NCBI GenBank assembly: GCA_007694165.1
Contig: RECE01000307.1
Coordinates: 1 to 64,000 of the forward strand
Source of the DNA: Bacteroidota bacterium
GTDB lineage: Bacteria > Bacteroidota > Bacteroidia > Bacteroidales > UBA7960
DNA: 64,000 nucleotides
Direction of reading: 5' to 3'
Below, in pieces: positions 43,301 to 61,533 of the stretch. The notes beneath the pieces were generated by a model. That model made no database searches, was not told the origin of the DNA, and saw only the letters and a program-made list of their open reading frames with translations. Every line of letters starts with the position of its first letter. The first letter of the stretch is position 1. The translations under genes were made by a program, and so were the position numbers.

Positions 43301-46300
43301 AGGTCGACGAAAATGTGCCCGTAATCAACCACGGAGACTTCTGGTATGTGACTGTCAGTTTTGACGGATGCTTAGAGGAGTCTTTTGCTGAGTTTGAAAT
43401 TCTTCCGGTGCCGGAACTTACCTGCCATATTTTGCCGGACATCTGTGAGAATGCAGAACCTTTGGAGCTGACAACATTTGCCTCCCCTGAAGGAGGAACC
43501 TTTTCGGGTGCCGGGGTTAGTGAAAATACCTTTGACCCAACGGGAATCGAACCCGGAGCCCACACCATTATGTATTCCTATGAAGAAGTTGGAACCTGCA
43601 CCGCTACCTGCGAACTGCAAATTACGGTATTGCCTGTAACGCCTGTGGTTTGCCCCGATACGCTGTATTTTTGCAGTGCAGCGGGAATGCAATTGCTGGA
43701 TGCCTCAAGCCCTGCAGGGGGTATATACCAAGGGTTTGGTGTTTCTGAAGATAACGGAAATTATTACTTTGAGCCCAACGGCCCCGATACCGGGGTGGGA
43801 GAATATATTCTTACTTACACATTTGAGAAAGATGGATGCACAGACATCTGCACCTTTGTGGCCAGCGTTCAGGATATTATAGATGTAAGTTGTGAGGGGG
43901 ACCAGTTTGTATGTATAGATTCCGGCATTCTGGTGCTTGACGATTTGTGTCCCAACCCCGGAGTGTTTTCGGGCACAGGAGTATCATTCAATGCCGATGA
44001 AGAATACTGGGAGTTTGACCCAGCCATTGCTGGCGAAGGCGATCATGCCATACTCCATATCTTTACCCATCCGGTAACAGGACTGGAATATAACTGCAAC
44101 TTTACCGTTACGGTTTACCCCTTGCCAATGATGGATTGCAGCGGACAGCCTGCCAGCTTTTGCACCAATGAGGGACCTTTGACAATGGAAGAAGTTTTCT
44201 CTCCCCTGCCCTCCGGTGGAGTCTATTTCATTAATGGTACAGAAACAGAACTATTTGACACAACAGAGGCCGGAGATTTTGAAATTACCTACCAGTTTAC
44301 CGACGAGATTACCCTTTGCAGCAACACCTGCACCTTCAGCATCACCATTCACCCCCTCCCTGATGCCAATGATTCTGTTGTGGAAATTTGTCATGATGAA
44401 AATGAAATTGTCATAAACCTGCTTGACTACAACGATCACATCAACCCGGAACCGGATATCGCATTCGCATGGTTTCACAACCCGGAATTGTCTGATGAGG
44501 TTGTAAACCCCGGAAGTGCACTCATAGAAGACGGGGATACCATTTATGTGCAGGTTACCGACGAAGAGGGTTGCTCAAACATTGCCAGTTTGAGCTTTGT
44601 GGTGGTCAATATTGCCCCTGTAGACACCACCATCGAGCTATGTGACGCCTCTGCGGACAATGCGTTGCAGGTATACAACATCCAGCTCGCCGACTACAAT
44701 GAGACCCTTTACCCCTATCAACCAGGGATTTCCTATCAGTGGTTTACAGACTCATCTCTGGGTGAGGCCTATGAAATTGAGATAGCGGATATCATAAGCG
44801 ATGGCGATGAACTTTATTTTGTCATCCATTATGATGAATGCACCTTTGCTTTTGTCATTCTTTTCACCATTCATCCATTGCCCGAAATTTCATGCAATGA
44901 TATTACCGTTTGCGACTATGCGGATGCAACAGACCTTTCTATGCTGGTTTCGCACGAGGGTGGTATTTTTGAAAGCCCCTGGGTGTCAGGAAGCATCTTT
45001 GATGTGGATGCAGCCGGCCCGGGAACCCACGCAGTTCTTTACACCTATTCCGACAGCAATGGTTGTGTTTCAACCTGCGAATTGCAAGTGAAAGTTTTCG
45101 CACCGGAAGGCTTTGCCTGCCCCGAAGAAGTGCTCCTTTGCCTGAACGATGGACTGACGGAGCTCAATTATGCTGCCCCTCCCGGAGGAAGTTACAGCGG
45201 ACCGGGAGTTTCCCAGAATGAAGGAATCTGGTATTTCAACCCCCTGGTGGCAGGGACAGGCAGCCATATGCTCACCTATACCTATGAAGAAACGGAAGCA
45301 GGTTGCATCCACAGCTGCACTTTCACGATTACGGTAAAAGCACTGCCTGGTATTGAATGCCCTGCGGACATGAGTGTTTGTGAAAATGACGAAGATATCA
45401 TCCTGAGTCAGTTGCCCCACTTTCCCCAGGGAGGAACTTTTGAAGGGATGTTTGTATCCTTTGAAAACGATCAGTACATCTTCAATACCCAACTGGCAGG
45501 CACTGAATTCTACGAAATCACCTACCATTACTTTGATGAAGAATCAGGGTGTGGAAATGCCTGTTCGTTCATCATAAAAGTTACCCCTCTGCCATCAGTG
45601 GTATGGGATGAAAATCTGAACTTCTGCTCCAATGACGGAATACTGGAACTGGAAATTGCTCAGCCCTCAGGAGGGATATATTCCGGAAATTATGTTGTGG
45701 ATGGACAATGGTTTGACTTTGGTGCGGCTGGCATTGGTCACCATGACATCACCTATACCTACACCAATACACAGGGATGCACCACAACTGCCGACACAGT
45801 CATTACCGTAAATGATGCGCCCGTTGTATATGCAGGTGAAGATATGTTCTTCCCCACCTGCACCGCCGTATCGTTGCAAGGTGCGGCAACCAATGGTACC
45901 CTGCCCTATGCTTATCAATGGCGTCCTTCAGCATTGCTTGATAACCCTCAAATTGCCAATCCTCAAACCTATACCCTGGGCAGCAATACCACATTCGTTC
46001 TCAAGGTTACCGATGCCAATGGTTGCCAGGATTCAGATGTGATGCAGATATGGATAGAAAACGGTCAATATGTTGATTTGCTGCCCTTCGAGCCTGTATG
46101 CCAGAACGAACCACCATTTCCTTTGGAGGGAGGACTCCCTTTGGATGGCATGTACTACATCAATGACAGTTCTATTCCGGCAACTACATTTGATCCTATG
46201 CAGGAAGGAGCTGGCGAACACACCATTTACTATATCTTTTCGGAACAGGAAGGCTGTTATGCCACAGCTGAAAGACAGATAATCGTTTACCCACTCCCTG

Positions 46301-49300
46301 ATATTCAGTGGGGCGGAGAAGAGTTTTGTGCCTTTTCCGGCTTACGGCCCATCACCCAGGCCTATCCTGAAGGAGGATTTTTCGCCGGGGACTACCTGAC
46401 AGGGAGCTCTTTTGACACCAATGCTTCGGGAACAGGCGAATTTCCCGTTTCATACAATTATACTGATACATTCGGTTGCAGTGCATCGGTGGATGCGCAG
46501 GTTATCGTTCATGCATTGCCCCATACTTTTGCCGGCGACGATCAGGTTATAACAACAGGAAATTACACTACCATCCAGGCCGCGAATCCCGGAGAGAGCA
46601 ACTATGATTATTTCTGGACCCCGCAGGTTTTTCTTGTATCTCCCCTTGAGCAAACCACCTTCACACGTGAGCTTTTGTTCAGCCAGGTTTTTTCGTTAAT
46701 CATCACTGACAGACAAACCGGCTGCACCGATGATGACGAAATGGTAGTTTTGGTAGAAGGGGGAGAACTGGAATTTGTGTATACTTTCGCGTCCCCCTCC
46801 AAAATATGCGATGGAGATACAACCATACTGAAGACACTGGTCAGCGGAGGCAAGCCCCCCTATCGCTATTTCTGGTATGAGGAAGACCCGCAGGAAAATC
46901 CTTCCGCCATGCATATCAACGATGATACAACAGAAAGAAATTTCAGTGTCTCACCCGGCACTTCACAAACCTATTACCTCAAAGCAACTGACTTCGAGGA
47001 CAACAACATTTTCAGAAACGTAAACATAACGGTAAACCCTTTACCCGAAATCAACCTCCCTCCCATAGAGCCTCTTTGCTTCAACACCCAGATAAACCTG
47101 GAAGAGCTGGTTGAATTCCCGGCAGGAGGTGTTTTTTTCTTTGAAGATGATGAAGGAGACTGGACCCACCCCCCATACGACCCTTATCCTGAGGTCAATA
47201 CAGGCAGCCTGGGAACCGGCACACATACCCTTGTGTACGAATATACCGACACCAACGGATGCAGCAACTTCGCAACCATTGACTTTACGGTGATTGATGT
47301 CTATGCATCATTTTCCATCAGTCAGCCCGACATTTGCCAACCCCATATCATCACCATCGTAAACGAGTCAGTGGGTGCAGAAGGATACCTCTGGGATTTT
47401 GATGAAAACCCGGAAAACACTCCGGAAGATATGGCCGATATTTTGTTTGAACATATTTTCCCGGTCTCTGATACAGCCATGGAATATACGGTTGTTCTTA
47501 CGATGGAACATGCACAATGCCCGGATACATTCTCGCAGACCATCAGCATTGACCCACGGCCCCAACCGGCATTTGCTTCCCATGAAGCAGGGTGTGGACC
47601 GCTTACCATTGATTTTCAAAACCAGTCAACCCATACCAATGATATTCTTCTGTATTTCTGGGAGTTTGGAGACGGCACTTCCTCTGTTATGGAAAACCCG
47701 TCCAAAACTTTCCACAACCATTCGGATGAAGACAAGGAGTATATCGTAAGCCTGACAATAGTCGCTCAAAATTACCAGTGTTTCTATTCCTATGAAGAGC
47801 AGGTTCTTGTATATCCCGAAATCTCTGCCGGATTTACAGTCACTCCCGGCAGTTCCTGCAGCCCTGCGACTATCACGATTATTGACCAGGCATTGCATGC
47901 GGAATGGTACTTCTGGGAGCTGGGCGATGGCTCCGAAATTCTGGTTCCCGCAGCAGAGTTTACTTCTCCTTTCACCCATGACTACATCAATACCGGGAAC
48001 CAACCGGACACTTTGCTGCTGAAGCAAACCCTCTGGATTGAGCGGGAAAACGAAATACAATGCATACAGGAATATGAGGAGGAGCTGGTGATTCTGCCGG
48101 AACATACCGCTGTAATTTTGGCCAACGGCGAGCAGATGGAAAATGAGCAGCTACTGGAGGGGTGCTCCCCATTCGCCCTTGACCTGCTCTCGGAAGAAAC
48201 TGCCTCCATCCTGGGCCGGACCTGGCATTTTGGAGATGGCACGAGCTCAACATTACAGAACCCGCAACATATCTTTACCAATGACACGCAAGAGGCCATA
48301 GAGTTTACATTGTCTTTGCAAACCATTTCTCAATGGGGTTGTCAGGATGAAATGCAGATTACGGTCAGGGTATTACCTGCCGTTGCCTCCTCCTTCAGCT
48401 TTTCACCCCATACAGCATGCAGCCCTGCCGAAATAAACTTTATCAGTACCTCCACCGGCATTACCCCCCTGGGCTTCGCATGGGATTTTGGCAATGGACT
48501 GGGAAGCACAGAGGAGCACCCTGAGGCAACTTTTTCCCACGAGGAACCCTCTGCTGTTACTTACACAATTGGACTGCTGGTAACCGACGAAAACGGATGC
48601 ACAGACACATCCTCATCCCAGCTTGTGGTGCATCCCGGCGTCACGGCAAATATCTCCACCGAGCCGGTAGCCAATGAAAACCATATTGTGGAAGGTTGTG
48701 CTACTCTGACGGTCCATTTCTCGGCAGCCCAGTCTGTCAATGCGCAAACTTTCCTGTGGGATTTTGATGATGGAAACTCTTCTTCCCACCAGGAAATCAC
48801 CCATACATTTGAAAATCCGGGTCAATACGAAGTAACCCTGGTTACGGGTTCAGGCGGATTTTGCCAGGATACAAAAACCATTACCATACTTGTGCATGGA
48901 GCAGCAGACAGCCGGTTTGCCATTTCGTCCACTGCAGGGTGCAGCCCTTTGGAAGGAGAAATCGAATACCTTTTCACACCGGATGCAACCGTAGATTATT
49001 ACTGGGATATGGAAGGGACTGGCGATTTTGAAGGATTTGATGCAGCAACACTCCCTGCATCGCAGATCTGGATCAATACAGGAGAACAACCTCATTCCCT
49101 GACCATGGCATTCAGAAGCATAACTGCAGCGGGATGCATCTCCGAAACCACCAGGCAAATCACTGTTTACCCGCAGGTATCAGCACAGATTTCTACTTCA
49201 GATGATTATGAGATTGTTCCGGGCGAGCCTCTGGAAGGCTGCTCCCCCTTTACCGTTGGCTTGTCAGCAGAACAATCGGAAGGAGCATCTTCCTTTCACT

Positions 49301-52074
49301 GGAATTTTGGGGATGAAACCACGAGCACCCTGCAAAATCCTGTACACACTTTTTTCAGCGAGGGAATGGCTGCAGCAAAAGAGTACCAGGTGGTGCTTTG
49401 GGCAGAATCAGACTGGGGGTGTTATGCCAGCGACAGCATTACCATAACAGCCCAACCGACACCGACAGCCTATTTTGAGACAGATTTTCCCGAAGGATGC
49501 TCCCCGCACACCATTTCATTTGACAACCAGTCGGACGGTGCCACGCATTTCAACTGGAATTTCGGAGATGGAAACATTTCAGCAGAGACCCATCCCACGC
49601 ACACCTACAGCCTGGAGCAGGGAGAAGCTCAACAGACATATACCGTAACGCTGGAAGCCATCCATGGAAGTGGGTGCAGTAGTTTTTTCCAGCAGGAAGT
49701 ATTGGTCCTGCCTCCTTTGTCTGCAACTTTCACCGCCAATCCGGCGGCAGGGTGTCATCCATTCACCGTAGAATTTTCACGTACTGAAAATCCGGGCCTG
49801 GAAAATGCAACCTATTTCTGGAATTACGGAGACGGAAACACCTCCTCTACTGCAGAAACAATGCACAGCCATACTTTTAACCATCTTAATGAGGAAGAAC
49901 AAACTTTCCAGGTTTCGCTAACGGTAACCTACCAGGACATCTGCAACGTTGTGCATGAGCAAGAGGTGGTGGTTTTCCCGCAGCCTGAAGCGCTCTTCAG
50001 CATTTCTCAACAAACAGGATGTGCCCCCCTGGAAATTATGGCCGAAAATCTTTCCATCCCGGGCATGGTGTATACCTGGGATTTTGGAGATGGAACGGAA
50101 CCCATGGAAACAGACGAAAGCATTGTGAACCACATCTACTACAATCCTTCCGATGTACCGGCAATCTTTCCTTTGACCCTCACGGTGCTGTCGGAGGATG
50201 AGTGCACCCATTCAATCACACGCAACATCACGGTATATCCTGAAACAAGCGCGTTCTTCACCGCGACGCCTCAGGAAGGTTGCCATCCCATGGAAGTTAC
50301 CTTTGACAACCAATCTGTAGGCGCAGTTAGTTATCTGTGGGATTTCGGAGACGGAGCCCAATCCACGGAAGAGCATCCTGTTCATACTTTTACCAACCAT
50401 CAGGCAGATCAGCCCGAAGAATATATCGTAACACTCAGCATCCAGTCTGCATATGGATGTGAAACCCTGCACAGCGACACCCTTGTGGTGGCACCCTCAC
50501 CCATGGCCGGCATACAATTGTCTGAACAAACAGGTTGTGCACCTTTCAGTCCTGAGATTACCGGCACATCACAAAATGCCATTGCGTACCATTGGGATTT
50601 TGGAGATGGCAACACATCCGATGAAGAACAACCGCAACAAACCTGGCACAATGATACTGACCAGACCCTCACCTTTGCCATGACCCTGACGGTCGAAAAT
50701 GCATCCGGATGCAGCCACACCACCACCAAAAATATTACGGTACACCCGCAGGTTACGGCAGGATTTACCACCGATGACGGACTGCCGGAAGGTTGCTCTC
50801 CCATGGAAGTGCGATTTGTAAATCAAAGCCAGGGAGCAGTAAGTTACCTGTGGGATTTTGGCAACGGACAAACTTCCCAGGCTGCCAATCCCATGCAGAC
50901 TTTTACCAACAACCATGAATTCCCTGTGACTTATCCTGTAAAACTTATCTCCGCATCTGCGGCAGGGTGCAAGGATACCCTTATCCGAACAATCACGGTA
51001 TATCCTATGCCCACAGCGGGATTTTCCGTAAATCCAAAACAGCAAACCTATCCTGCTGCTACCATTGCCATTACCAACCATCATCCGGGTCAGACAGGCT
51101 TGTACCACTGGGATTTTGGCGACGGCAATACCTCTGATACTGAAGCAGCAGAATTTACCCACACCTACACATGGGATGACGGTGAATACAACACCCAATC
51201 CTACACCATCACCCAGCGTGTTTACAACGATTACTGCCAGCAGGAGGCCACGGCCACGGCCATCATCAACAGCCCTGTCCCTTTAGCAGACTTTGATGGC
51301 GAGATGAAAGGGTGCGCCCCCCATACCATTACCTTCAACAATCAATCGTTGTATGCTCATACTTACAAATGGGATTTTGGGGATGGCAGCATTTCTCATC
51401 ATGAAAACCCGGAATACACCTATCACCAGCCCGGCATCCGTGACGTAACACTGATTGCCATTGGTGATGGCGGAAGAGACACCCTTACAAGCACTGTGGA
51501 GGTATTTCCCACTCCCGTGGCAGATTTTCAGATTGCTTCCAACCTGGTATATGTCCCACTGGAACCGGTCAGTATCACCAACCTTTCTGTGGATGCCTCT
51601 TCGTGGTACTGGGAGTTTGGCGATGGAGGAACTTCAGTGGAGTTTGAACCCGAATACCGTTTCCAGGAGCCCGGGCTTTACAGCATTAGTCTTACCGCCT
51701 ACACCCATACCGAACCGGTTTGTACCGACACCAAAGTACAGGAAAACGCCGTTCGTGCCGAAGAGGCCTGCATGGTGGTTTTCCCCACGGCCTTTGCCCC
51801 AAACAAAACCAGCAGTTCGGGAGGCAGCTATATTCCCGGCGCATCCAACCGTGAAGTTTTCTACCCCGTACACAAGGGAGTGGAAGAGTACAGACTGGAA
51901 ATTTACAACCGCTGGGGTGAGTTGATTTTCGTCAGTGAAGATCCGCTGGTAGGCTGGGATGGATACATACGCGGCCGCCTGATGGAAATGGGGGTGTACA
52001 TATGGAAAGTGGAAGTACAATGCAATACGGGCCGAAGAATCAACAAAGCAGGAGACGTTACACTCATCAGATAA
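40357..52074 (+). CDS. Giant surface protein 2, 3905 residues, mixed Ig-like and PKD repeats, type B T9SS domain
   Basis: An exported protein of over 400 kDa, the largest in the window. The N-terminus has a long polar stretch and then a hydrophobic segment (about 36-55) ending near GFSQ. Residues about 185-2310 are built from about 26 modules of roughly 75-90 residues in three classes. Class A is Cys-rich (PxGGxFxGxGVxxxxFDP...GCxxxCxFxVxVxPLP). Class B is LCDxSxxGxLxxxNLxxYxxxINP...FxWYxDxxLxxxV...DGDxxYVxV. Class C is a few PKD-like copies. Seventeen PKD domains follow (about 2314-3800), each usually starting GCxP and containing WDFGDG, then a type B sorting domain (FPTAFAPN...YNRWGELIF...GWDGYIRGR). 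The frame is open throughout with no frameshift. The next giant gene begins 13 bp later. It is probably an extended adhesive fibre; the ligand is unknown. Confidence 0.87.
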   Translation: MKAERAKYIPQKSHPFYQEKEKEKDLLRICTNILSKLVLISTSLYLFGLMYPVKGFSQITNNCQVVFEIDLTASPDAQWDSPEDVIPGDPCCGMPDYFDCFEIVVELHEDALAFEVEFKSVIGELYYIINCEGISQTMPADRKVRVCTEGTSAPVSLVFCRPGSPVLSFMVKSLPSGIDIDFAPLPSLCMDDDPLPLTGAVPAGGEYFIGNDSEPSESFDPSFYEPGDYVITYQLRDEDTGCLGLAHQIITVHPLPELSCADFSLCHDSAPVTLAAMQDQLPPGGTFIIEGTAITEFDPQHFGPGVFQAEYFYTSAETGCSAVCSFQITLHGLPEVEQNEISLCDYTGEGFVENINLTDYHSFISSADNIQFAWFYDEDMELPVTQPEIISIADEDALWVLITHTPSGCATLEEIVFHVQTMTPENQVAEVCEQSTDGALELYNVDLNSYNSLFYPSSPYVSYEWFWDEALQNPVTLPIPILSGSSHTFWISITDGECSASARLILTVHPLPEINCHPAEFMLCQHSETIDLYETFSQLPTEGFFTLNGLIVSEFTPLEPGTFSLVFTFEDAATGCASQCNITIEVVALPEAGDVSVSLCDESGTGQLDNINLTLYEPQINPNDNITFTWYFDPDLQNEVPNPESTSIEDGYIFYVKTEDPNSCFNTATVDFTVIDTHIPDKTIDLCDASDDDSQQVFDLDLDTFNNEIYPDDPGVSYTWFEDAEMTLEITDPVSVVNHLTDFWVEVSIDECVTTAKITFRVNSLPEVNCMGMIPDFCSNDAPFDLYSLEVSPPGGVFSGAGVNVQGFFNPGNAGEGTHTLTYTWTSPDTQCSNSCTFTVTVLPHPETENIEIDLCQSGGQANVDLFEYTSDITGETDVTFAFYEDAALTVPVASPENHTVSDGDIIYVEVSNEDCFSIATITFSVMDNLGLLSPTLDFCDESGTGLLQIYDTDLNNFNNSIYPVQQGVEYQWYSDAGYENEVDENVPVINHGDFWYVTVSFDGCLEESFAEFEILPVPELTCHILPDICENAEPLELTTFASPEGGTFSGAGVSENTFDPTGIEPGAHTIMYSYEEVGTCTATCELQITVLPVTPVVCPDTLYFCSAAGMQLLDASSPAGGIYQGFGVSEDNGNYYFEPNGPDTGVGEYILTYTFEKDGCTDICTFVASVQDIIDVSCEGDQFVCIDSGILVLDDLCPNPGVFSGTGVSFNADEEYWEFDPAIAGEGDHAILHIFTHPVTGLEYNCNFTVTVYPLPMMDCSGQPASFCTNEGPLTMEEVFSPLPSGGVYFINGTETELFDTTEAGDFEITYQFTDEITLCSNTCTFSITIHPLPDANDSVVEICHDENEIVINLLDYNDHINPEPDIAFAWFHNPELSDEVVNPGSALIEDGDTIYVQVTDEEGCSNIASLSFVVVNIAPVDTTIELCDASADNALQVYNIQLADYNETLYPYQPGISYQWFTDSSLGEAYEIEIADIISDGDELYFVIHYDECTFAFVILFTIHPLPEISCNDITVCDYADATDLSMLVSHEGGIFESPWVSGSIFDVDAAGPGTHAVLYTYSDSNGCVSTCELQVKVFAPEGFACPEEVLLCLNDGLTELNYAAPPGGSYSGPGVSQNEGIWYFNPLVAGTGSHMLTYTYEETEAGCIHSCTFTITVKALPGIECPADMSVCENDEDIILSQLPHFPQGGTFEGMFVSFENDQYIFNTQLAGTEFYEITYHYFDEESGCGNACSFIIKVTPLPSVVWDENLNFCSNDGILELEIAQPSGGIYSGNYVVDGQWFDFGAAGIGHHDITYTYTNTQGCTTTADTVITVNDAPVVYAGEDMFFPTCTAVSLQGAATNGTLPYAYQWRPSALLDNPQIANPQTYTLGSNTTFVLKVTDANGCQDSDVMQIWIENGQYVDLLPFEPVCQNEPPFPLEGGLPLDGMYYINDSSIPATTFDPMQEGAGEHTIYYIFSEQEGCYATAERQIIVYPLPDIQWGGEEFCAFSGLRPITQAYPEGGFFAGDYLTGSSFDTNASGTGEFPVSYNYTDTFGCSASVDAQVIVHALPHTFAGDDQVITTGNYTTIQAANPGESNYDYFWTPQVFLVSPLEQTTFTRELLFSQVFSLIITDRQTGCTDDDEMVVLVEGGELEFVYTFASPSKICDGDTTILKTLVSGGKPPYRYFWYEEDPQENPSAMHINDDTTERNFSVSPGTSQTYYLKATDFEDNNIFRNVNITVNPLPEINLPPIEPLCFNTQINLEELVEFPAGGVFFFEDDEGDWTHPPYDPYPEVNTGSLGTGTHTLVYEYTDTNGCSNFATIDFTVIDVYASFSISQPDICQPHIITIVNESVGAEGYLWDFDENPENTPEDMADILFEHIFPVSDTAMEYTVVLTMEHAQCPDTFSQTISIDPRPQPAFASHEAGCGPLTIDFQNQSTHTNDILLYFWEFGDGTSSVMENPSKTFHNHSDEDKEYIVSLTIVAQNYQCFYSYEEQVLVYPEISAGFTVTPGSSCSPATITIIDQALHAEWYFWELGDGSEILVPAAEFTSPFTHDYINTGNQPDTLLLKQTLWIERENEIQCIQEYEEELVILPEHTAVILANGEQMENEQLLEGCSPFALDLLSEETASILGRTWHFGDGTSSTLQNPQHIFTNDTQEAIEFTLSLQTISQWGCQDEMQITVRVLPAVASSFSFSPHTACSPAEINFISTSTGITPLGFAWDFGNGLGSTEEHPEATFSHEEPSAVTYTIGLLVTDENGCTDTSSSQLVVHPGVTANISTEPVANENHIVEGCATLTVHFSAAQSVNAQTFLWDFDDGNSSSHQEITHTFENPGQYEVTLVTGSGGFCQDTKTITILVHGAADSRFAISSTAGCSPLEGEIEYLFTPDATVDYYWDMEGTGDFEGFDAATLPASQIWINTGEQPHSLTMAFRSITAAGCISETTRQITVYPQVSAQISTSDDYEIVPGEPLEGCSPFTVGLSAEQSEGASSFHWNFGDETTSTLQNPVHTFFSEGMAAAKEYQVVLWAESDWGCYASDSITITAQPTPTAYFETDFPEGCSPHTISFDNQSDGATHFNWNFGDGNISAETHPTHTYSLEQGEAQQTYTVTLEAIHGSGCSSFFQQEVLVLPPLSATFTANPAAGCHPFTVEFSRTENPGLENATYFWNYGDGNTSSTAETMHSHTFNHLNEEEQTFQVSLTVTYQDICNVVHEQEVVVFPQPEALFSISQQTGCAPLEIMAENLSIPGMVYTWDFGDGTEPMETDESIVNHIYYNPSDVPAIFPLTLTVLSEDECTHSITRNITVYPETSAFFTATPQEGCHPMEVTFDNQSVGAVSYLWDFGDGAQSTEEHPVHTFTNHQADQPEEYIVTLSIQSAYGCETLHSDTLVVAPSPMAGIQLSEQTGCAPFSPEITGTSQNAIAYHWDFGDGNTSDEEQPQQTWHNDTDQTLTFAMTLTVENASGCSHTTTKNITVHPQVTAGFTTDDGLPEGCSPMEVRFVNQSQGAVSYLWDFGNGQTSQAANPMQTFTNNHEFPVTYPVKLISASAAGCKDTLIRTITVYPMPTAGFSVNPKQQTYPAATIAITNHHPGQTGLYHWDFGDGNTSDTEAAEFTHTYTWDDGEYNTQSYTITQRVYNDYCQQEATATAIINSPVPLADFDGEMKGCAPHTITFNNQSLYAHTYKWDFGDGSISHHENPEYTYHQPGIRDVTLIAIGDGGRDTLTSTVEVFPTPVADFQIASNLVYVPLEPVSITNLSVDASSWYWEFGDGGTSVEFEPEYRFQEPGLYSISLTAYTHTEPVCTDTKVQENAVRAEEACMVVFPTAFAPNKTSSSGGSYIPGASNREVFYPVHKGVEEYRLEIYNRWGELIFVSEDPLVGWDGYIRGRLMEMGVYIWKVEVQCNTGRRINKAGDVTLIR

Positions 52075-52087
52075 AAACAGGAACAGA

Positions 52088-55000
52088 ATGAGAAACACCG
52101 GAATCACAATATCTGTCATACTTTTCATCACCCTTTGGTTTGGGCAGTTGCCCCTATTGGCTGCAGAAAGGGATGCAACCCGTGTTTCAGAAAAAATGAG
52201 CCGGGAGACCCCCCTGATGGCCTTATTCACTATCGGTCAGGCATCAGGCTGTACTCCTCTTGAAATAACCCTGCACAATCATTCAGTCGGCGCCACCCAT
52301 TTTTTGTGGGATTTCGGCGATGAAAATACTTCAGCCACCAATGCAATAAGTTTTACCCACAGCTGGACGACCGACGACGATACTCCCGAAACCTTCACCA
52401 TTACCCTCACAGCATTTCATGGCGAATTGTCAGACACACATACCGCCACCATTACCGTTTATCCCATGCCGGAGACTTCCATTATCATCCCGGATGAATG
52501 GATCACAGGTTGCGCCCCTCATACCGTAACGTTTTCACAGCAATCGGTTCTTGCCCATCAATTTCTCTGGGATTTTGGTGACGGAACCACCTCCACCCTC
52601 CCCGAACCAGAACATACTTTTACCAACAACAGCGATGATTTGCAATCCTTTGAAGTGATGCTGACTGCGGTCTACACAACCCCCAACGGACAGGTATGCC
52701 AGGTGAAAGATTCTGTTGTCATTGCGGTAAAGCCCTTGCTCAAAGCATCATTTACTCATACCCCGGCAGCAGGGTGCTCTTCACTTGCGCTTGACATCAC
52801 CAATACATCGCAGGGTGCCACTACCAACACATGGAACTTCAACGACGGCAATGAACCTTTCATCAACAACGAACCCTCTTTCAGTTATCCGCTTACCAAT
52901 AGCACCGAAACAGACAAGACCTTCACCGTGGAGCTAACCACCCAAAACAGCCTGGGTTGCACAGACCAGTTCAGCCGTGAAGTCACTGTTTTCGCCCTGC
53001 CCAACGCCGAATTTGAACCATCCGACACCTTTGCCTGCTCTCCGGCCTTTATTAATTTCACCAACCTCTCCACAGGTGCGACCCAGTGGCAGTGGGATTT
53101 TGACAATGGCACCGGGGCTTCCGTTTTTGAGCCGCAACAGGTGGGATTTGTGCAACCGCAACAGGGTGAAGAAGCTGTTTTTAATGTGAGCCTTCTGGCC
53201 ACCTCAAACAAAGGATGCCAGCAAACACATACAAGGCCCATCACCATCGCCCCGTCTCCGACTGCAGGATTCAGCCTTTCCCAACCATCGATTTGTGCAG
53301 TGAACGGTTCGGCAACGGCAACCTTCAGCAATACTGCTGCCCATGCACAACAGGTCCAGTGGCAGGCAACCAACAACCTGGACGATGAAGTGATGGAGTG
53401 GGAAAACACTTCAGAAGATTTTGAGTATATTTTTGAAAATCCCTACAACGAACCCATAGTTTTCACCATCACCCAGACCGCCATCAATGAATTTGGCTGC
53501 ACGGCAATGAAAGAGAGACAGCTAACCCTGCGCCCCGGAATCCTTGCAGAAATTGAACCGGTTGCGTCGGGTTGCCATCCGCATCCGGTCAGCTTTCACC
53601 ATAACACGCCCGGCGCGACCTCTTATGTCTGGGAGTTAAGCGACGGGACCACGTTTGCCGGAGAAAACCCGGAAAGGACTTTTCATAACAGCGGCCACAC
53701 CGGGGTTCAGCAGCATTTTGCTCAGCTGACCGTACAATCGGAACATGGCTGCACCCATGACACCATTGTATATTTTGATGTGTATCCACGCCCCAAAGCA
53801 CTGTTCAGCCTTCCGGTACAACAGACATGTGCCCCTGCCGAACTGGAAATAACCGATGCAAGCATTACAACCGGAGAGCATCTTTATGCCTGGAATTTCG
53901 GACAAGACACTGACACCCTTATGCCACCGGGAAACATCCAATGGTCTTTTGACCACTCCGAAACAAATCCGGTCCTGCAGGAAATATCCCTTACCGTGAG
54001 CAATGAATGGGGTTGCATCCAGACTTTTACCGGAGCTCTCACCCTGTTCCCCCGTGTAAGTGCAGATTTTACCGTTTCCGATACCCTGGGCTGCCATCCC
54101 CTGGAGATAACCCTGACCAATCAATCCACAGGCGCCGATGCCCATATCCCGTTTTCATGGAATTACGGCAACGGTGCATCCTTCAATACGGATGAAGAGC
54201 ACAACCGTACTTTCCTCAATTCCTACGCGGATGAACAGGAAATTTACACTGTTGTACTGGAAGCCACCTCGGTGCATGGCTGTACAGATCAGGCTACCCA
54301 AAACATTTATGTTTCCCCCCGCCCCCAGGCTTTCTACGAAACCTCTGACACTTCAGGATGCGCACCGCTGCTGGTGGAATTTCAGCACCCTGCCGGAGGG
54401 AATGAACTTACCTGGCTCTGGACATTTGACGAGGGTGAAACCTCAACCGAAGCAGGAAATGTGAGCTATGAGTACTTAGTCCCTGCCGGCGAGACACCTC
54501 AGGTTTTTGAAACGTCATTGCTACTGACCAACAGCTGGGGGTGCAGTCATAGCCATGAACAAAGCATCACTGTTTATCCTGAAGCAGAAGCGGCTTTCAG
54601 CAACATCCAGTCAGGTTGCCATCCCCTGGAAGTGTCATTTACCAGTGCGAGTGTAGGTGTATCACAATGGCAGTGGGATTTCGGTAACGGAAGTATATCT
54701 GAGCAGGAAAACCCGGACCAGACCTTTTTCAACCCTTCCAACGAATCCAGCGCTGAATTTATCGTATCGCTTCTGGCCATTTCACCATGGGGATGCGAGG
54801 ATACTGCTTTTGATACCCTGACGGTGTTTCCCCGCCCAAAAGTGGCCTATGAAATGACCCCCCGCAATGGCTGCAGCCCTTTGAACGTTACCTTTGAAAA
54901 CCAAACCGAAGGGGCAACTGATTTTTTGTGGGATTTTGGCAACGGAACCTCCACCACCGGCGAACCTCTGTTTGAAAGAGGATTTGAAAACCTATCCAGC

Positions 55001-56425
55001 CAACCGGACACCTTCCTCATTACGCTCAAAGGAACCAACGCCTATCAGTGCAGTACATTTTCAGAAAAATCCCTTGTGGTTTACCCCGAAGTCACAGCAG
55101 ATTTTTCCACTTCCACTGACACCTGGCAGGGATGCAGTCCGCTCCATCTGAGCTTTATCAATGCGTCGGAGCAGGCCCATGAGTATTTGTGGCATTTCGG
55201 TGAACAGGAGGTATCCGATGAAGAAAACCCCGCATGGACTTTCGTTTCCGATGGTGAACCCGAAACCCTGGTCAGAGTATTGCTTGAGGCCTTTTCCCTT
55301 TATGGATGCGTTGATTCCATGGCACGGGAAGTAACGGTCTTTCCCCAACCGGTAGCCGACTTTGAAGCCCTCCCCCACCAGCAGTATTATCCGGACCGCA
55401 CGGTGTTTGTTACCAATTACTCGTCGCCAGGCGACTGGATTTTTTTATGGGACATGGGAGATGGCAGCTCCTTCGAAACCCACAGCAACGAACCCTTCCC
55501 CCATACCTATGCATGGGAGGAGGAAACTGACTCAACGCAACGTTTTACCATTCATCTGGAAGTAGCGGGTGAACATTGTACCGACAATATGCAGCAAGAA
55601 GTCTCCATTTTGCTGGAGGGGCCTGTTGCCCAGTTTGGTCCTGAAGCACAGGGATGCCCGCCCCTGGAGGTGCAGTTCAACAACCAAAGCCAGTTTGCCC
55701 GCACCTGGCACTGGGACTTTGGCGATGGGAACACCTCCGCAGAAGAAAACCCCTCACACGTTTTTGAATACCCGGGCGAATATGAAGTTACCCTAACCGT
55801 TACCGGAGAATCGGGAACAAGCGAAACCTCCCTGACCATCACTGTTTTTCAACCTCCCAACGCCAGCTTCAGGGTAGAACCTGAAATAATTGTTCTTCCC
55901 GACGACTGGGCGCAAATGATCAACCTCACCGCATTGGGGCACACCTTTGAATGGGATTTCGGCGACGGCAATTTCTCCACAGAAGAAGAACCCCTGCACT
56001 ATTACAATGAACCAGGCCAGTTTATCATTGAACTCACAGCCGGAAACAACACCGACCCCCAATGTTTTGACACCACCACCCGGGAGATACAGGTAACCAC
56101 AACGGAAACTGAAAACCCATGTTATATGTATTTTCCCAATGCATTCACCCCCAACCCCACAGGCACCGGCGGTGGCACCTATAAGCAGGGCGACCCGGCC
56201 AATGATGTTTTCCATCCCAGGCACAATGGGATTGCAGAGTATCGTCTGGAGATTTTCAACCGCTGGGGCGAAAAGATTTTTGAAAGCACCGATATTCATA
56301 TCGGATGGGATGGGTATGTAAGAGGAAAACTTTCTGCCATGGGGGTTTACATCTACCAGGTAACCGCCCGCTGCGAAAACGGCACAGAGATAGAGGATTC
56401 AGGGGATGTGACGCTGGTGAGGTAG
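52088..56425 (+). CDS. Giant PKD-repeat surface protein 3 (type B T9SS domain)
   Basis: A 1445-residue exported protein starting 13 bp after the 3905-residue gene, so the two are translated from one message. The signal peptide (1-26, ending LLAA) leads almost directly into fifteen PKD-type domains (about 38-1340). Most have GC-x-P at the first strand, WDFGDG or WDFGNG in the turn, and a second Cys near the end. The type B sorting domain at about 1344-1445 reads FPNAFTPN...FNRWGEKIF...GWDGYVRGK. It has no separate N-terminal effector domain, unlike giant proteins 1 and 2, which suggests a spacer or structural partner role. No plus-strand terminator is visible after it; the next genes are convergent. 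Confidence 0.88.
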   Translation: MRNTGITISVILFITLWFGQLPLLAAERDATRVSEKMSRETPLMALFTIGQASGCTPLEITLHNHSVGATHFLWDFGDENTSATNAISFTHSWTTDDDTPETFTITLTAFHGELSDTHTATITVYPMPETSIIIPDEWITGCAPHTVTFSQQSVLAHQFLWDFGDGTTSTLPEPEHTFTNNSDDLQSFEVMLTAVYTTPNGQVCQVKDSVVIAVKPLLKASFTHTPAAGCSSLALDITNTSQGATTNTWNFNDGNEPFINNEPSFSYPLTNSTETDKTFTVELTTQNSLGCTDQFSREVTVFALPNAEFEPSDTFACSPAFINFTNLSTGATQWQWDFDNGTGASVFEPQQVGFVQPQQGEEAVFNVSLLATSNKGCQQTHTRPITIAPSPTAGFSLSQPSICAVNGSATATFSNTAAHAQQVQWQATNNLDDEVMEWENTSEDFEYIFENPYNEPIVFTITQTAINEFGCTAMKERQLTLRPGILAEIEPVASGCHPHPVSFHHNTPGATSYVWELSDGTTFAGENPERTFHNSGHTGVQQHFAQLTVQSEHGCTHDTIVYFDVYPRPKALFSLPVQQTCAPAELEITDASITTGEHLYAWNFGQDTDTLMPPGNIQWSFDHSETNPVLQEISLTVSNEWGCIQTFTGALTLFPRVSADFTVSDTLGCHPLEITLTNQSTGADAHIPFSWNYGNGASFNTDEEHNRTFLNSYADEQEIYTVVLEATSVHGCTDQATQNIYVSPRPQAFYETSDTSGCAPLLVEFQHPAGGNELTWLWTFDEGETSTEAGNVSYEYLVPAGETPQVFETSLLLTNSWGCSHSHEQSITVYPEAEAAFSNIQSGCHPLEVSFTSASVGVSQWQWDFGNGSISEQENPDQTFFNPSNESSAEFIVSLLAISPWGCEDTAFDTLTVFPRPKVAYEMTPRNGCSPLNVTFENQTEGATDFLWDFGNGTSTTGEPLFERGFENLSSQPDTFLITLKGTNAYQCSTFSEKSLVVYPEVTADFSTSTDTWQGCSPLHLSFINASEQAHEYLWHFGEQEVSDEENPAWTFVSDGEPETLVRVLLEAFSLYGCVDSMAREVTVFPQPVADFEALPHQQYYPDRTVFVTNYSSPGDWIFLWDMGDGSSFETHSNEPFPHTYAWEEETDSTQRFTIHLEVAGEHCTDNMQQEVSILLEGPVAQFGPEAQGCPPLEVQFNNQSQFARTWHWDFGDGNTSAEENPSHVFEYPGEYEVTLTVTGESGTSETSLTITVFQPPNASFRVEPEIIVLPDDWAQMINLTALGHTFEWDFGDGNFSTEEEPLHYYNEPGQFIIELTAGNNTDPQCFDTTTREIQVTTTETENPCYMYFPNAFTPNPTGTGGGTYKQGDPANDVFHPRHNGIAEYRLEIFNRWGEKIFESTDIHIGWDGYVRGKLSAMGVYIYQVTARCENGTEIEDSGDVTLVR

Positions 56426-56513: not shown

Positions 56514-58127
56514 CTAATTGTAACCGGGGTTCTGAGGAAAATCACTCCAGGTGCGGTCAATCTGGGTTTGAGGAATGGGCCTTAGGTTATGAAACTCCTG
56601 AATATTGAGAGAACCTTTAGGATTATGTGCCCTGACTCTTGCCACAAGTTTACCTGTTCTTTTCAAGTCATACCATCTGTGCAGTTCTCCGGCCAGCTCT
56701 CTGCCACGCTCATCAAGAATTTCATCGATGGTGAGCTCAGCGGGAGTTATAAGGGGTATCTCCACACCCGGGAAAGCGGCACGGCTGCGCAAAACATTGA
56801 AATAGTAGGCTGCATCATCCAATTGACCGAGCATCATCAGTGCTTCAGCAGCTATCAGATAGGTTTCGCCCAAACGCATATACATGTAATCTCTCCCATG
56901 CAAAGCCTGATAAGGGTATCTGTGTTTATGAACAGTTGGTGCATACACTGTATTGATGTCTTCTATGCGAATTACCAGGTAAGGATACTTTTCTTCAATT
57001 TCTTCCCTTGACATTTCCTGAACGATTGGGTCGTTGGTAAACCATGCGGCAGTATCTCCTATTGCGGCTCCATTGGGTAAGTTGTTTTCATCATTATAGA
57101 GCCATGCCTCTTTAAAAGTAACACTGTATCGCATATCGTTGCGTATGTGCAAACCTTCTTCACGGTAATCATTGCCAAACAGTTCTGTCAACAAGTAAGG
57201 AGTTGGAAAAAAGCGGGCTTTTCCAATATGGTACATGTTATCACCCACAAGCCCTTCAATCAGCCATTGCCTGGGCCCTATAAATCTCTGGATTTGATTG
57301 GGCGGAGAATTAACTTCAGGATTATCGCCCCACTGCACTGCCCAGATTGCTTCAGCATGCCGCTGATTGAAAGGGTCAAAAACATCCTCATAACTATCCA
57401 GAAGATGGTGCCTGCCACCTTCAATAACGGCAATGGCCAAATCGGCAGCCTGCTGCCAGTTGCCTATGGTAAGGTGTACTTTGGCCAGATGATTTACCGC
57501 TGCATCATGCGTAGGACGGCCATATTGGGTTTGTTGCAGGGGCAAATACTCTGCCGCAAACTCCAGGTCACTGATAATTACCTCATAGACCTCTTCTACA
57601 GGAGAGCGTGTGGCTTCCAGTTCCACATCACGGGTTTCTTCAAGGGTTATATGCAATGCACCAAAATGCTGAACAAGTACAAAGTAAAAATGAGCGCGTA
57701 AAAACTTTGCTTCAGCCATTTTCATGTTTTTGGTATTTTCATCTATTCCATCCACTTCGGGTGCCCTGCTGATGACAGTATTGGCATTGTTAATTCCTCT
57801 GTAAAAGTTATCCCACACAAAAACGTCTGAAGATGCCCTGAGGAGGTTTGAGGGGTTCAGACCACTTCCATAATCATTCCAGTGAGGATTGTAGGTTTGC
57901 CCTTCAGTGAAAAGATCGGTACCATAAAGGGTCATCAAAAACCCATTTTGCTGGCCGTAATACAAACGCAGGGGAACATATGTGGCGATAAGGGCTTCAT
58001 CAAGCCCCTGAACTGTTGAGAACTGATTGTCTGCAACCGTGTCGGTTATCATATCTTCCATTAAATCGGCACAGGAAGAAAAAAACACGACAAATAATAC
58101 AACGAGAATACTTATTTTATATTTCAT
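56514..58127 (-). CDS. SusD/RagB family outer-membrane lipoprotein
   Basis: A 537-residue substrate-binding lipoprotein that acts as the lid of a SusC channel. The frame is open further upstream to 58322, but that would overlap susC by 160 bp. ATG 58127 is chosen because it starts MKYKISILVVLFVVFFSSC, a lipoprotein signal with Cys19 for lipidation. The helical TPR-like body shows the family patterns, including AEAKFLRAHFYFVLVQHFG, LGETYLIAAEALMMLGQ and, near the end, DEILDERGRELAGELHRWYDLKRTGKL. It lies 34 bp after susC on the same strand. No glycoside hydrolase, sulfatase or peptidase accompanies the pair, so the nutrient (glycan or peptide) is unknown. Confidence 0.93.
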   Translation of the reverse strand: MKYKISILVVLFVVFFSSCADLMEDMITDTVADNQFSTVQGLDEALIATYVPLRLYYGQQNGFLMTLYGTDLFTEGQTYNPHWNDYGSGLNPSNLLRASSDVFVWDNFYRGINNANTVISRAPEVDGIDENTKNMKMAEAKFLRAHFYFVLVQHFGALHITLEETRDVELEATRSPVEEVYEVIISDLEFAAEYLPLQQTQYGRPTHDAAVNHLAKVHLTIGNWQQAADLAIAVIEGGRHHLLDSYEDVFDPFNQRHAEAIWAVQWGDNPEVNSPPNQIQRFIGPRQWLIEGLVGDNMYHIGKARFFPTPYLLTELFGNDYREEGLHIRNDMRYSVTFKEAWLYNDENNLPNGAAIGDTAAWFTNDPIVQEMSREEIEEKYPYLVIRIEDINTVYAPTVHKHRYPYQALHGRDYMYMRLGETYLIAAEALMMLGQLDDAAYYFNVLRSRAAFPGVEIPLITPAELTIDEILDERGRELAGELHRWYDLKRTGKLVARVRAHNPKGSLNIQEFHNLRPIPQTQIDRTWSDFPQNPGYN

Positions 58128-58161
58128 GATATTTATTTTATATAGTTCTTGAGAAATGATA

Positions 58162-61100
58162 TTAAAACCCAATTTCAACACCCAGCATATACGTGATATA
58201 ATTGGGCATATCGTGATTTCTGGCTCCTTCCGGATCAAGACCTTCAAAATTTGTGAAGGTAAACGGATTCTGAACCGTAGAAAAAACACGTGCCCTGGAA
58301 AGACCAAGTCTTTCAAGCGCATTGGAGGGCAGGGAGTACCCGAGGGTAATATTACGCACTCTCACATAACTTGCATCAAAATATCCCATGGGAGTAAAAT
58401 AAACATGTCCTCTTACCCTGGGCTCCGGATATTCTGTACTGGGATTATCGGGTGTATAATAGTCGATATTCAGAGAGTTCAGGTTATATCCCCGTCTCAG
58501 ATTGAGATATCCCCCCAAAGATGTGCCGCCTGCTTGACTCCAGATAGTAACTCCCTGGGCAGTATACAGCATAAAGGAAAAGTCAAAATTTCTGTAATTC
58601 ATGCGGCTGCTTAAACTTCCTGTCCATGAAGGATTCTCAGACCCCAGAATAACTCTGTCTTCTGCCCCAATGACTCCATCACCGTTTATATCCCTAACCC
58701 TGATGTCGCCGGGTGCAGCACCATATTGGGCTGCCTGTTCACGCTCTTCTTCCTGCCAGACACCCTCAAATTCATAATCAAAATGGACATTAACCGGCTG
58801 ACCAATAAACCAATTGTTTCCGGGGTCATCTTCTTTACCTCCATAAAGTTCGATAATCTCATTTCTGTTGGTGTGGAAAATCAGTGTGGTTTCCCAGTTA
58901 AACCTACCGGGTTGGGCAGCCTTTACAATTAGATTGGAAAGACTCAATTCAAACCCACGGTTTCTTGTGGAGCCAACATTTTCCAGTGTACTTGAAAAGC
59001 CCGATGTTGCAGGCAGCTGTCTCTGCATCAACAGATCGATGGTATTCTGCTGATAAAGGCCTACCGTACCCGATACCCGGTAATCGAAAAAACCGAAGTC
59101 GATACCAAAGTCCATCTGTCGTGTTCTTTCCCATCTGAGATCTGCATTGGCAAGTTCAGCATTCTGAAAACCAAACACGGATTGATCTCCAAAACTATAT
59201 CCTACACGCGACACCCTGCCCTGGGTTTGATAAGGTTGAATTCCTGTATTTCCGACATCCCCGTAGCTCAAGCGAAATTTTAATTCATTCAGGTTCGCCA
59301 GGTTCGACAGTGCTGGTTCATCTGATGCTAGCCATGCGAAAGCCATGGATGGAAAAAGCCCATATTTGTTTCCCTCCGCCAACCTGGAAGAACCATCCAG
59401 ACGTCCTGTCAGGGTAAACAAATAGCGCCCCATCAAAGAGTAGTTGGCTCTGAGCATATACGATTCAAGCACCCATTCTCTCAGCGTAGAATTTCGCGCG
59501 GTAGTTTCTTCTGCTGTTCCTATATTATAGAATCTTTGCTGTTCGAATGGCAGTCCTCTTACAGAGACGGAGTTCCCTGTGAGGTTATTGGTCTGAACAC
59601 TATACAAGCCGGTCAATCTGATGTTGTGATTCAAACCCAGCGATCTTCTGTAATCGATAATATTCTCATAGAGGATATTTCGAGTGCGCTCGTTGTTGAT
59701 AGAAGCAGTAGAATTTTGCCAGCTATGGTTGCCCCTTTCGAAGGTACTGATGTCAGGAGCAAAATTAAACCGGTAGGTGAACCCTTCGAAAGGAGTAAGT
59801 TCAGCATAAACATTGGCAATGATGCGGGTTCTGTCCCGTTGATCAATATACCAGTCTCTGTTGAGATTGAGCATGGGAAATGTCTCTCCAACGGCAAACT
59901 CTCCTCTCAGGGCTTCCTCTCCTCTTTCAGGCCAATCCAGAGGACTGCGCAGCACCAGGTCTCTGAAATTCCCTCCCCGATGTTCACGACTGGTGGATAC
60001 CTGAGCTGAAATTCCGGCCCTGAGAATACTGGTAACATTTTGGTCGAGATTCAACCTGCCAACATAACGGGTAAAATCATTGTTGTCCACAATGGCCTGA
60101 TGTTCATTGAGATTACCCGAAAGCGAATAGCGAGTACTTTCGGTTCCGCCTCTTATATTCAGCTGGTGGTTTTGCTGAAAACCTGTATTGAATGCTTCCT
60201 GCTGCCAGTTGGTATTGATTCCGTTTTGAATAGCCTCCATTTCCCAGTCCATAAAAAGATCTTCATCTGAGGTATAGGTGCCTTCTCTTCTTGCAGCATT
60301 TCTTTGCATTTCGGTGTATCTTTCAGCATCCATCAAATCAATGGTGCGTGCTATTTCCTGTAATCCTGCAGACACTGAATATTCTATGTAAGTAGCACCC
60401 ACAGGACCTCGCTGTGTTGTAATCAGGATAACTCCGTTTGCGCCTCGTGAACCGTAAATAGCTGTAGCCGATGCATCTTTGAGGATTTCAATGGATTCAA
60501 TGTCAGAAGGGTTAACAGCTGATAAATCACCTTCAATAGGGATACCATCAAGCACTATAAGCGGATCGTTGCCTGCAACAAAAGAGCGGGTTCCCCTGAT
60601 CCGAATGGTAGCTCCGGCACCAGGTCTGTAACTGTCAGCAACAACCTCCACTCCGGCAGCACGCCCCTGCAGGAGGTTTTCCACTGAATAAATCGGTTCG
60701 CTGGTAATAGTGGCCCGGTCGATAGAGGAAATGGAACCGGTAATCTCCCGTCTCTCCATACGCCCGTAACCTACTACCACTACCTCATCAAGCGCTGCCA
60801 TAGCGGGTTGCAAGGCCACATTCAACACCTGCTCCCGGTCCACTTCTACCAATGTGCTTTCGTAGCCGATAAAAGTAAATCTCAGCCTGCTCCCCGGACC
60901 CGGCACCTGGATAGAATAACTGCCGTTGCGATCTGAAACGGTTCCGCTATTGGAGCCTTCAACAACCACATTCACACCGGGCAAAGTTTCTCCACTCCTG
61001 GCATCTGTTATTACTCCTGTAACCTGAAAGGTATTTTGAGCTGAATTGCCTTGCGATAAGGCAGAACTTGCGCTTACCAGCGAAATTACCAGTAAGAACA

Positions 61101-61188
61101 TCAACGATAAACCTGTATTCCTGAAAAACAAAAGGTTATTATTTTTCAACGCGTAAGGATTACGCTTCAGATAATGCATTTTTTTCAT
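58162..61188 (-). CDS. SusC/RagA family TonB-dependent outer-membrane transporter
   Basis: A 1008-residue barrel. The signal peptide ends near residue 45 (ASSALSQ). A carboxypeptidase-regulatory-like domain (about 55-133, VTGVITDARSGETLPGVNVVVEG) leads to the SusC-type signature DEVVVVGYGRMERREITGSIS, which includes the TonB-box region. The plug domain (about 150-265) has VENLLQGRAAGVEV, RIRGTRSF and SIEILKDASATAIYGSRGANGVILITT. The rest is beta-barrel, ending in a terminal aromatic residue (VEIGF). With SusD it imports an oligomer using TonB energy. No sigma/anti-sigma or two-component regulator is adjacent; a plus-strand terminator lies in its leader. Confidence 0.95.
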   Translation of the reverse strand: MKKMHYLKRNPYALKNNNLLFFRNTGLSLMFLLVISLVSASSALSQGNSAQNTFQVTGVITDARSGETLPGVNVVVEGSNSGTVSDRNGSYSIQVPGPGSRLRFTFIGYESTLVEVDREQVLNVALQPAMAALDEVVVVGYGRMERREITGSISSIDRATITSEPIYSVENLLQGRAAGVEVVADSYRPGAGATIRIRGTRSFVAGNDPLIVLDGIPIEGDLSAVNPSDIESIEILKDASATAIYGSRGANGVILITTQRGPVGATYIEYSVSAGLQEIARTIDLMDAERYTEMQRNAARREGTYTSDEDLFMDWEMEAIQNGINTNWQQEAFNTGFQQNHQLNIRGGTESTRYSLSGNLNEHQAIVDNNDFTRYVGRLNLDQNVTSILRAGISAQVSTSREHRGGNFRDLVLRSPLDWPERGEEALRGEFAVGETFPMLNLNRDWYIDQRDRTRIIANVYAELTPFEGFTYRFNFAPDISTFERGNHSWQNSTASINNERTRNILYENIIDYRRSLGLNHNIRLTGLYSVQTNNLTGNSVSVRGLPFEQQRFYNIGTAEETTARNSTLREWVLESYMLRANYSLMGRYLFTLTGRLDGSSRLAEGNKYGLFPSMAFAWLASDEPALSNLANLNELKFRLSYGDVGNTGIQPYQTQGRVSRVGYSFGDQSVFGFQNAELANADLRWERTRQMDFGIDFGFFDYRVSGTVGLYQQNTIDLLMQRQLPATSGFSSTLENVGSTRNRGFELSLSNLIVKAAQPGRFNWETTLIFHTNRNEIIELYGGKEDDPGNNWFIGQPVNVHFDYEFEGVWQEEEREQAAQYGAAPGDIRVRDINGDGVIGAEDRVILGSENPSWTGSLSSRMNYRNFDFSFMLYTAQGVTIWSQAGGTSLGGYLNLRRGYNLNSLNIDYYTPDNPSTEYPEPRVRGHVYFTPMGYFDASYVRVRNITLGYSLPSNALERLGLSRARVFSTVQNPFTFTNFEGLDPEGARNHDMPNYITYMLGVEIGF

Positions 61189-61195
61189 AATTTTG
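61188..61195 (+). promoter_or_regulatory. Candidate plus-strand -7 box antisense to the susC start
   Basis: TAATTTTG matches TAnnTTTG on the strand opposite to susC and overlaps its start codon. The -33 region is poor. It would start a transcript near 61202 that reaches the terminator ending at 61322. Confidence 0.25.
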
Positions 61196-61201
61196 TTTTT
61201 G

Positions 61202-61322
61202 TTTTAGGTGAATGATTTTTAAAGCAATCCAATGAGTTTTAGACCTCGTGCTTTAATTTGAAACTGAAAAATCTGAAACATTTTTTACATTGGGAGAATG
61301 GCCGTTCTCCCAATTTTTTTTT
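61202..61322 (+). ncRNA. Possible antisense small RNA over the susC leader
   Basis: This is an inference from two signals on the plus strand: a TAnnTTTG box at 61188-61195 and a strong intrinsic terminator at 61289-61322. Together they would give an RNA of about 120 nt complementary to the susC 5' leader. Cis-antisense sRNAs in this position are known repressors of susC-like genes in Bacteroides (the DonS type). Start and length are approximate. Confidence 0.35.
61289..61322 (+). terminator. Plus-strand intrinsic terminator in the susC leader
   Basis: TTGGGAGAA (61290-61298) pairs perfectly with TTCTCCCAA (61305-61313) around TGGCCG, with one more A-T pair, followed by nine Ts on the plus strand. 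On the minus strand no T run follows. Flanking genes are all on the minus strand, so it serves no annotated gene. Confidence 0.75.
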
Positions 61323-61533
61323 GCATAAGTATAAGGGATTTTTAGGTGAATAAATTGATAGAACTTTCGGTTATTATGCCTGCATTGCTAAGTGTTCTTA
61401 AGAATACAAAACCTCTGCTAAGGTAAAAATCAACAGACAAGAAATTATTAACTTAATCTTATGTTTAAATTAATTGTTTTTTACCTTGAGCAAGGAACCA
61501 GGTTTCCAGCTGACTCTTAATGCTATTATAATG

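Follow-up and report, generated by a model that had tools for sequence, protein, structure and literature searches.

Does a susCD locus that stands apart from any sigma/anti-sigma pair carry its own antisense RNA gene? The question is raised by a window of 64,000 nucleotides (64 kb) of Bacteroidota DNA, where the leader of a susC homologue faces, on the other strand, a hairpin followed by a run of Ts. An adjacent ECF sigma/FecR anti-sigma pair is the usual context of DonS-like RNAs, and not a strict definition of them. In the accessible parts of PMC7366714, DonS is placed in a family of 78–128-nt cis-antisense RNAs that lower the expression of susC homologues, and TAnnTTTG at −7 is given as the sigma-ABfr consensus, with no −33 element identified in Flavobacterium johnsoniae. 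According to excerpts of PMC10994844, the B. thetaiotaomicron annotation includes 32 PUL-associated antisense RNAs, some correlating negatively and others positively with their PULs, and the portion of PMC11697453 available to us states that it is not known how DonS acts.

From comparative sequence evidence, we consider it probable that the window holds a short (~120 nt) DonS-like cis-antisense RNA gene that represses susC and is detached from the usual sigma/anti-sigma/STN system.

The susCD locus and the predicted antisense unit

The preliminary description of the window placed every gene from 56.5 to 64 kb on the minus strand and reported sigma/anti-sigma pairs as absent. The orientation was borne out for the main genes, which encode SusD, SusC, a metallophosphoesterase, an MGDG-synthase-like glycosyltransferase and a DUF6938 protein (Table 1). 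The absence extends to the whole of the 75-kb contig C133 to which the window belongs, with neither FecR nor Sigma70_r4_2 among the matches listed; the same was found for contig C231 of genome G010, only 11.8 kb long, which carries the one close orthologue found. Residues 1–300 of the window SusC gave no STN match at E ≤ 0.001, the only families matched being Plug and CarboxypepD_reg. Contamination of the genome is estimated at 8.3%, and the host of the contig is therefore uncertain. Two very large repeat proteins adjoin susCD on the plus strand (40357–52074, 3905 residues; 52088–56425, 1445 residues), with repeats that look PKD-like.

Table 1. Features of the susCD locus and of the predicted antisense unit
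Feature	Position	Strand	Remarks
susD homologue	56514..58322	−	longest ORF; true start probably further in
susC homologue	58162..61188	−	CarboxypepD_reg and Plug domains in residues 1–300
Antisense −7 promoter box TAATTTTG (sense CAAAATTA, then TG)	61188..61195	+	overlaps susC ATG
Predicted antisense RNA, about 120 nt	61200..61322	+	predicted from box and terminator
Terminator hairpin ATTGGGAGAA-TGGCCG-TTCTCCCAAT	61289..61314	+	10 perfect pairs
T9 tract of terminator	61314..61322	+	directly 3' of hairpin

Both elements that had been described opposite the leader, a perfect 10-bp hairpin with nine Ts along the plus strand and a TAnnTTTG match about 100 bp before it, are present, so that the leader has, as sequence elements, an antisense-strand promoter and terminator of its own. 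The segment 61289–61322 has the features of an intrinsic terminator, namely a GC-containing stem, a T-run directly after it and a single polarity. Folding adds a U.G pair to the hairpin, giving 11 pairs and a GGCC apical loop; the almost symmetric stem folds as well when read on the sense strand. Box and hairpin are separated on the plus strand by an AT-rich spacer of 93 nt. The 5' end of the predicted RNA was set a few bases past the box, and the 120-nt RNA folds at −25.7 kcal/mol (z −2.0, with 8 of 200 shuffles as stable). On reading the sequence, no −33 TTTG element was seen 5' of the antisense box. In none of the six leaders checked (the window, G010 and four others) does a sense TAnnTTTG occur within 300 nt upstream of the ATG.

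Counted alone, neither element stands out. TAnnTTTG occurs 60 times in the 64-kb window against 51.4 expected, so the motif by itself is not significant, and the nine terminator-like sites between 56 and 64 kb are at chance level (8.1 expected from shuffles), although the hairpin of the leader has the most pairs among them. Box and hairpin rise above chance because of their conservation in an orthologue and of a survey of SusC leaders, both given below.

An imperfect direct repeat, TTTTAGGTGAAT, flanks the hairpin at 61202–61218 and 61340–61356. Read on the sense strand (ACCTAAAA), each copy lies 13 nt before an ATG, that of susC in one case and an upstream one in the other.

Conservation in an orthologue

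Among the matches listed in a search of 59 genomes, its own included, the best match outside the gene itself was the SusC of G010 (72% identical), followed by one at 39%. In a search of 393 genomes of the order, in which G010 is absent from the matches listed, the best other SusC among them was L064 (43%).

The leaders of the single pair formed by the window and G010 were compared segment by segment, as identical columns against the mean of shuffles that keep base composition only. The 150 nt upstream are 53% identical (shuffled 51%). The A-tract and hairpin then agree in 33 of 34 columns (97%; shuffled 42%), the segment from hairpin to box drops to 54% (48%), and the box with the first codons, ATGAAAAAAA, rises to 15 of 17 (88%; 60%), its two differing columns being the free nn of TAnnTTTG. 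Identity is again 50% (48%) over susC codons 4–45, and 70% (48%) for the CDS. All 26 positions of the hairpin are identical, with a T-run of 8 in G010 against T9 in the window, while the gene upstream of susC differs, encoding a metallophosphoesterase in the window and a Por_Secre_tail protein in G010. Since the surrounding leader lies near shuffle level and box and terminator are kept, what the leader retains is the two elements expected of a putative antisense transcription unit, and the comparative evidence for this predicted unit is strong. The conservation of CAAAnnTATGAAAAAAA could also reflect translation of susC.

The preliminary description had proposed an antisense sRNA and had suggested that close relatives be checked for the hairpin. 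The one close orthologue, G010, keeps it; L064, classed as non-STN by its short N-terminal extension, has neither the exact box nor an antisense terminator. The hairpin is non-repetitive, occurring at one place in its own genome and in 2 of 147 genomes, its own included. Within genome_contigs, a set from which the window's genome may be left out, the exact match is a single contig, REDJ01000121.1, from a Bacteroidetes MAG.

Survey of SusC leaders

Leaders were gathered from the window's own genome and its relatives (100 places among the matches listed for SusC in the 59 genomes) and, across the order, from loci with an STN domain, PF07660 (78 places among the matches listed, 18 loci counted in, mostly full-length frames). 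The compilation used 155 of 160 entries, leaving out L015, L017, L029, L044 and L137; also not in it are L006 (the same gene as L031), L018, L019, L020, L024 and L033. The query was CAAAnnTATG on the sense strand at an in-frame ATG, equivalent to antisense TAnnTTTG on the start codon; start codons of the surveyed leaders are partly guesses, and the position of L175 is uncertain.

The exact box lies on an in-frame ATG in 49 of 105 STN-type leaders (29 of the 105 classed by an N-terminal extension of at least 270 nt, not by Pfam) against 3 of 124 non-STN leaders (Fisher p 9e-17, ignoring kinship among sequences that are related and not independent). The three are the window, G010 and L169, in which the box sits on a later in-frame ATG that is probably not the start. 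It is absent in exact form from 56 of the 105 STN leaders; tolerating one mismatch, at any in-frame ATG, raises the counts to 64 of 105 and 14 of 124. At the first in-frame ATG the box stands in 41 STN leaders, against 20 CAAAnnTA matches at the other 179 offsets together. The box survey as a whole goes without L172 and L216, which have no ATG, and without two non-STN entries that a narrower start limit removed. No enrichment of a −33 element was found in the STN leader set.

A terminator was called where a hairpin with a T-run lay within 160 nt and folded at −8 kcal/mol or better; these thresholds were of our own setting. Among the 49 STN leaders with the box, 42 have an antisense terminator and 2 a sense one, where dinucleotide shuffles lead one to expect 6.15; the remaining 7 have none by these settings. 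STN leaders without the exact box have it less often (17 of 56 antisense, 0 sense, 5.3 expected), and 10 of these 17 carry a one-mismatch box at the first or second ATG. Over all 105 STN leaders, terminators are thus antisense in 59 and sense in 2. Among non-STN leaders the numbers are 6 of 124 antisense, window and G010 included, and 9 sense (7.9 expected), and only the window and G010 combine exact box and terminator. Within STN leaders the two elements co-occur with Fisher p 7e-9, again ignoring kinship. The estimated RNA length in the 42 STN leaders is 64–142 nt (median 93.5), and from box to T-run the estimate is 121 nt in the window and 130 nt in G010.

The gene upstream on the same strand is FecR in all 15 STN leaders checked, those in which the box is present and the upstream sequence runs to 900 nt or more, and it ends 81–221 nt before the susC ATG. 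Among STN-type SusC genes that have FecR upstream, this layout of box and terminator is widespread in the leaders.

Some further features of these leaders were recorded. Upstream of the antisense terminator, no more than 65 nt away, 17 of 59 STN leaders carry GCCTATG (e.g. L090, L098, L196, L240 and L260; shuffled mean 0.01, maximum 1). Relaxed to RCYTATG, the motif is found in 22 of 59 leaders, of which 21 have an ATG there that opens a frame of only 1–6 codons. It may mark a leader peptide or form part of a sense promoter. The window has the variant ACTTATG at 61324–61330 on the minus strand, opening a 13-codon frame (61326–61285) that runs through the hairpin and ends with TAA just after it. 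L007, an STN-type SusC gene with FecR adjoining on contig C382 of the window's own genome, has a start region, AAACAAAATTATGAAAAAAA, nearly as in the window; its antisense hairpin has a weak T-run.

Relation of the window SusC to STN-type proteins

The window SusC has a long stretch before its signal sequence, with a hydrophobic core that begins at residue 26 (23 in G010). The median start is residue 23 in STN leaders with the box (n=49) and residue 6 in the other non-STN SusC (n=81, the N-terminus having been measured in 81 of 121), of which 15 of 81 start at 15 or more. Since the value for L064 is likewise 22 when its first ATG is taken as the start, the long pre-signal region is only a hint of a link to STN-type SusC. 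In a tree of 46 SusC, the window and G010 fall into a group of 13 rows, 7 of them STN and 6 non-STN (SH-aLRT 99), which is compatible with loss of STN and falls short of showing it. It would fit these data that the window susC descended from an STN-type gene, losing the STN domain and the regulators and keeping the antisense unit; it could instead have gained the unit by acquisition.

Terminator model and RNA family searches

A terminator model trained without the window ranked the hairpin first in the 64 kb (29.0 bits, against 18.6 for the next site). The covariance model R1 was built from 31 of the 42 STN-leader terminators. In two genomes, from each of which only 150 first-look candidates were scored, R1 reached up to 31.6 bits at other sites; the resulting list lacks the window hairpin. 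As R1 is not family-specific, we rejected it as proof of family membership; it supports a good terminator only.

Rfam gave zero matches at the gathering threshold in the 64-kb window. The leader itself had 16 sub-threshold matches, the best being PyrR at 23.1 bits (gathering 54), with neither GibS nor FopS among them; 20 STN leaders gave one sub-threshold GibS match. GibS was above cut-off in none of 16 surveyed genomes, with weak matches in 7, and in 1 of 393 genomes, G209, which is probably Bacteroides-like because it passes that cut-off. Among the six STN genes of G209, exact boxes stand at L273 and L274, each with an A-run and hairpin upstream when read by eye (the script gave only the L274 hairpin); the L274 frame has 874 residues and may not be SusC.

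Proposed mechanism and alternative explanations

Transcription, pairing and repression by the antisense RNA are all inferred from the sequence, as follows. RNA polymerase carrying the primary sigma factor of Bacteroidota would initiate at the TAnnTTTG box on the susC start codon, copy the complement of the leader for ~120 nt and stop at the hairpin and T9, yielding an RNA that spans the mRNA leader from ~12 nt before the ATG to position −134. Pairing with the leader would most likely lower uninduced susCD expression by blocking initiation and exposing the leader to RNase, and collision of transcription may contribute. With the antisense promoter lying across the start codon, polymerases on the sense strand would have to pass over it; strong sense transcription should then silence the antisense RNA, which would produce a threshold switch.

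The antisense sRNA proposed earlier gains support from sequence comparison, since box and terminator form two conserved islands that match the STN-leader layout in position and polarity. The same elements could have other uses. The terminator might merely stop spurious antisense transcription from an AT-rich start and so shield the region upstream, or the unit might act by polymerase collision, the RNA having no role in either case. Weak or pervasive antisense transcription has indeed been reported for B. thetaiotaomicron and Flavobacterium in the accessible parts of PMC7366714 and PMC9723704. We regard this as unlikely: a precise box and a terminator that are conserved jointly and concentrated in one SusC class point to a dedicated unit, and action by an RNA is favoured because the terminator would end antisense transcription inside the leader. 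Somewhat less likely still is that the hairpin serves the sense strand, as a structure or protein site at the 5' end of the susC mRNA or as a DNA operator. Its near-symmetric stem, its place near the top of the leader and its full identity in G010 would all suit such a role; the T-run, however, is on the antisense side in both orthologues, terminators of STN leaders almost always face the same way, and the box is conserved alongside the hairpin.

It is also conceivable that the unit is a relic that no longer matters, a leftover in a locus that has lost its sigma/anti-sigma genes and its STN domain. The contigs, with no FecR or sigma factor among the matches listed, the N-terminus without an STN match and the long pre-signal region like that of STN-type SusC are what a relic would leave. 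Near-perfect retention of box and terminator, while their surroundings diverged to near shuffle level, makes this very improbable.

Relation to known systems and significance

The predicted unit resembles DonS of Bacteroides fragilis and its relatives, likewise antisense to a susC homologue, a likeness by description for a unit predicted from sequence. As far as PMC7366714 was accessible, it shares with them a sigma-ABfr-type −7 box and an intrinsic terminator, and its predicted length of about 121 nt (130 nt in G010) stands beside the 78–128 nt reported. Unlike them, it has no adjacent sigma/anti-sigma pair listed and faces a SusC without an STN match. The surveyed STN-type units share with the window the ATG register of the box, similar hairpins and an antisense terminator about 70–150 nt upstream; L165 even has the GGCC loop closed by U.G. 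They differ in following directly after FecR in all cases checked and in lying in STN-type genes, whereas the window gene has neither. GibS and FopS, small Bacteroidota RNAs, also end at an intrinsic terminator (for FopS, in the accessible text of PMC11697453), as predicted in the window; the window differs in its lack of an Rfam match at the gathering threshold. The unit is thus of a known kind, a PUL antisense RNA, and its orphan setting is a variant. No description of the fixed overlap of box and susC ATG was found in the literature searched, of which parts only were accessible; Cao et al. 2016 may contain one.

It is a tentative generalisation, for which the chances are slightly below even, that a separable cassette, made of an antisense promoter in the susC start codon and a terminator at the top of the leader, marks many Bacteroidota SusC genes, persists on orphan susCD pairs and can alone set basal expression. 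PUL antisense RNAs are already known from gut Bacteroides. The fixed geometry, in which the box overlaps the susC ATG and the terminator stands towards the top of the leader, is a sequence rule by which candidates can be found in unstudied genomes. It also suggests a way in which transcription of one strand could shut out that of the other, and the orphan example sets the predicted antisense layer apart from sigma/anti-sigma signalling.
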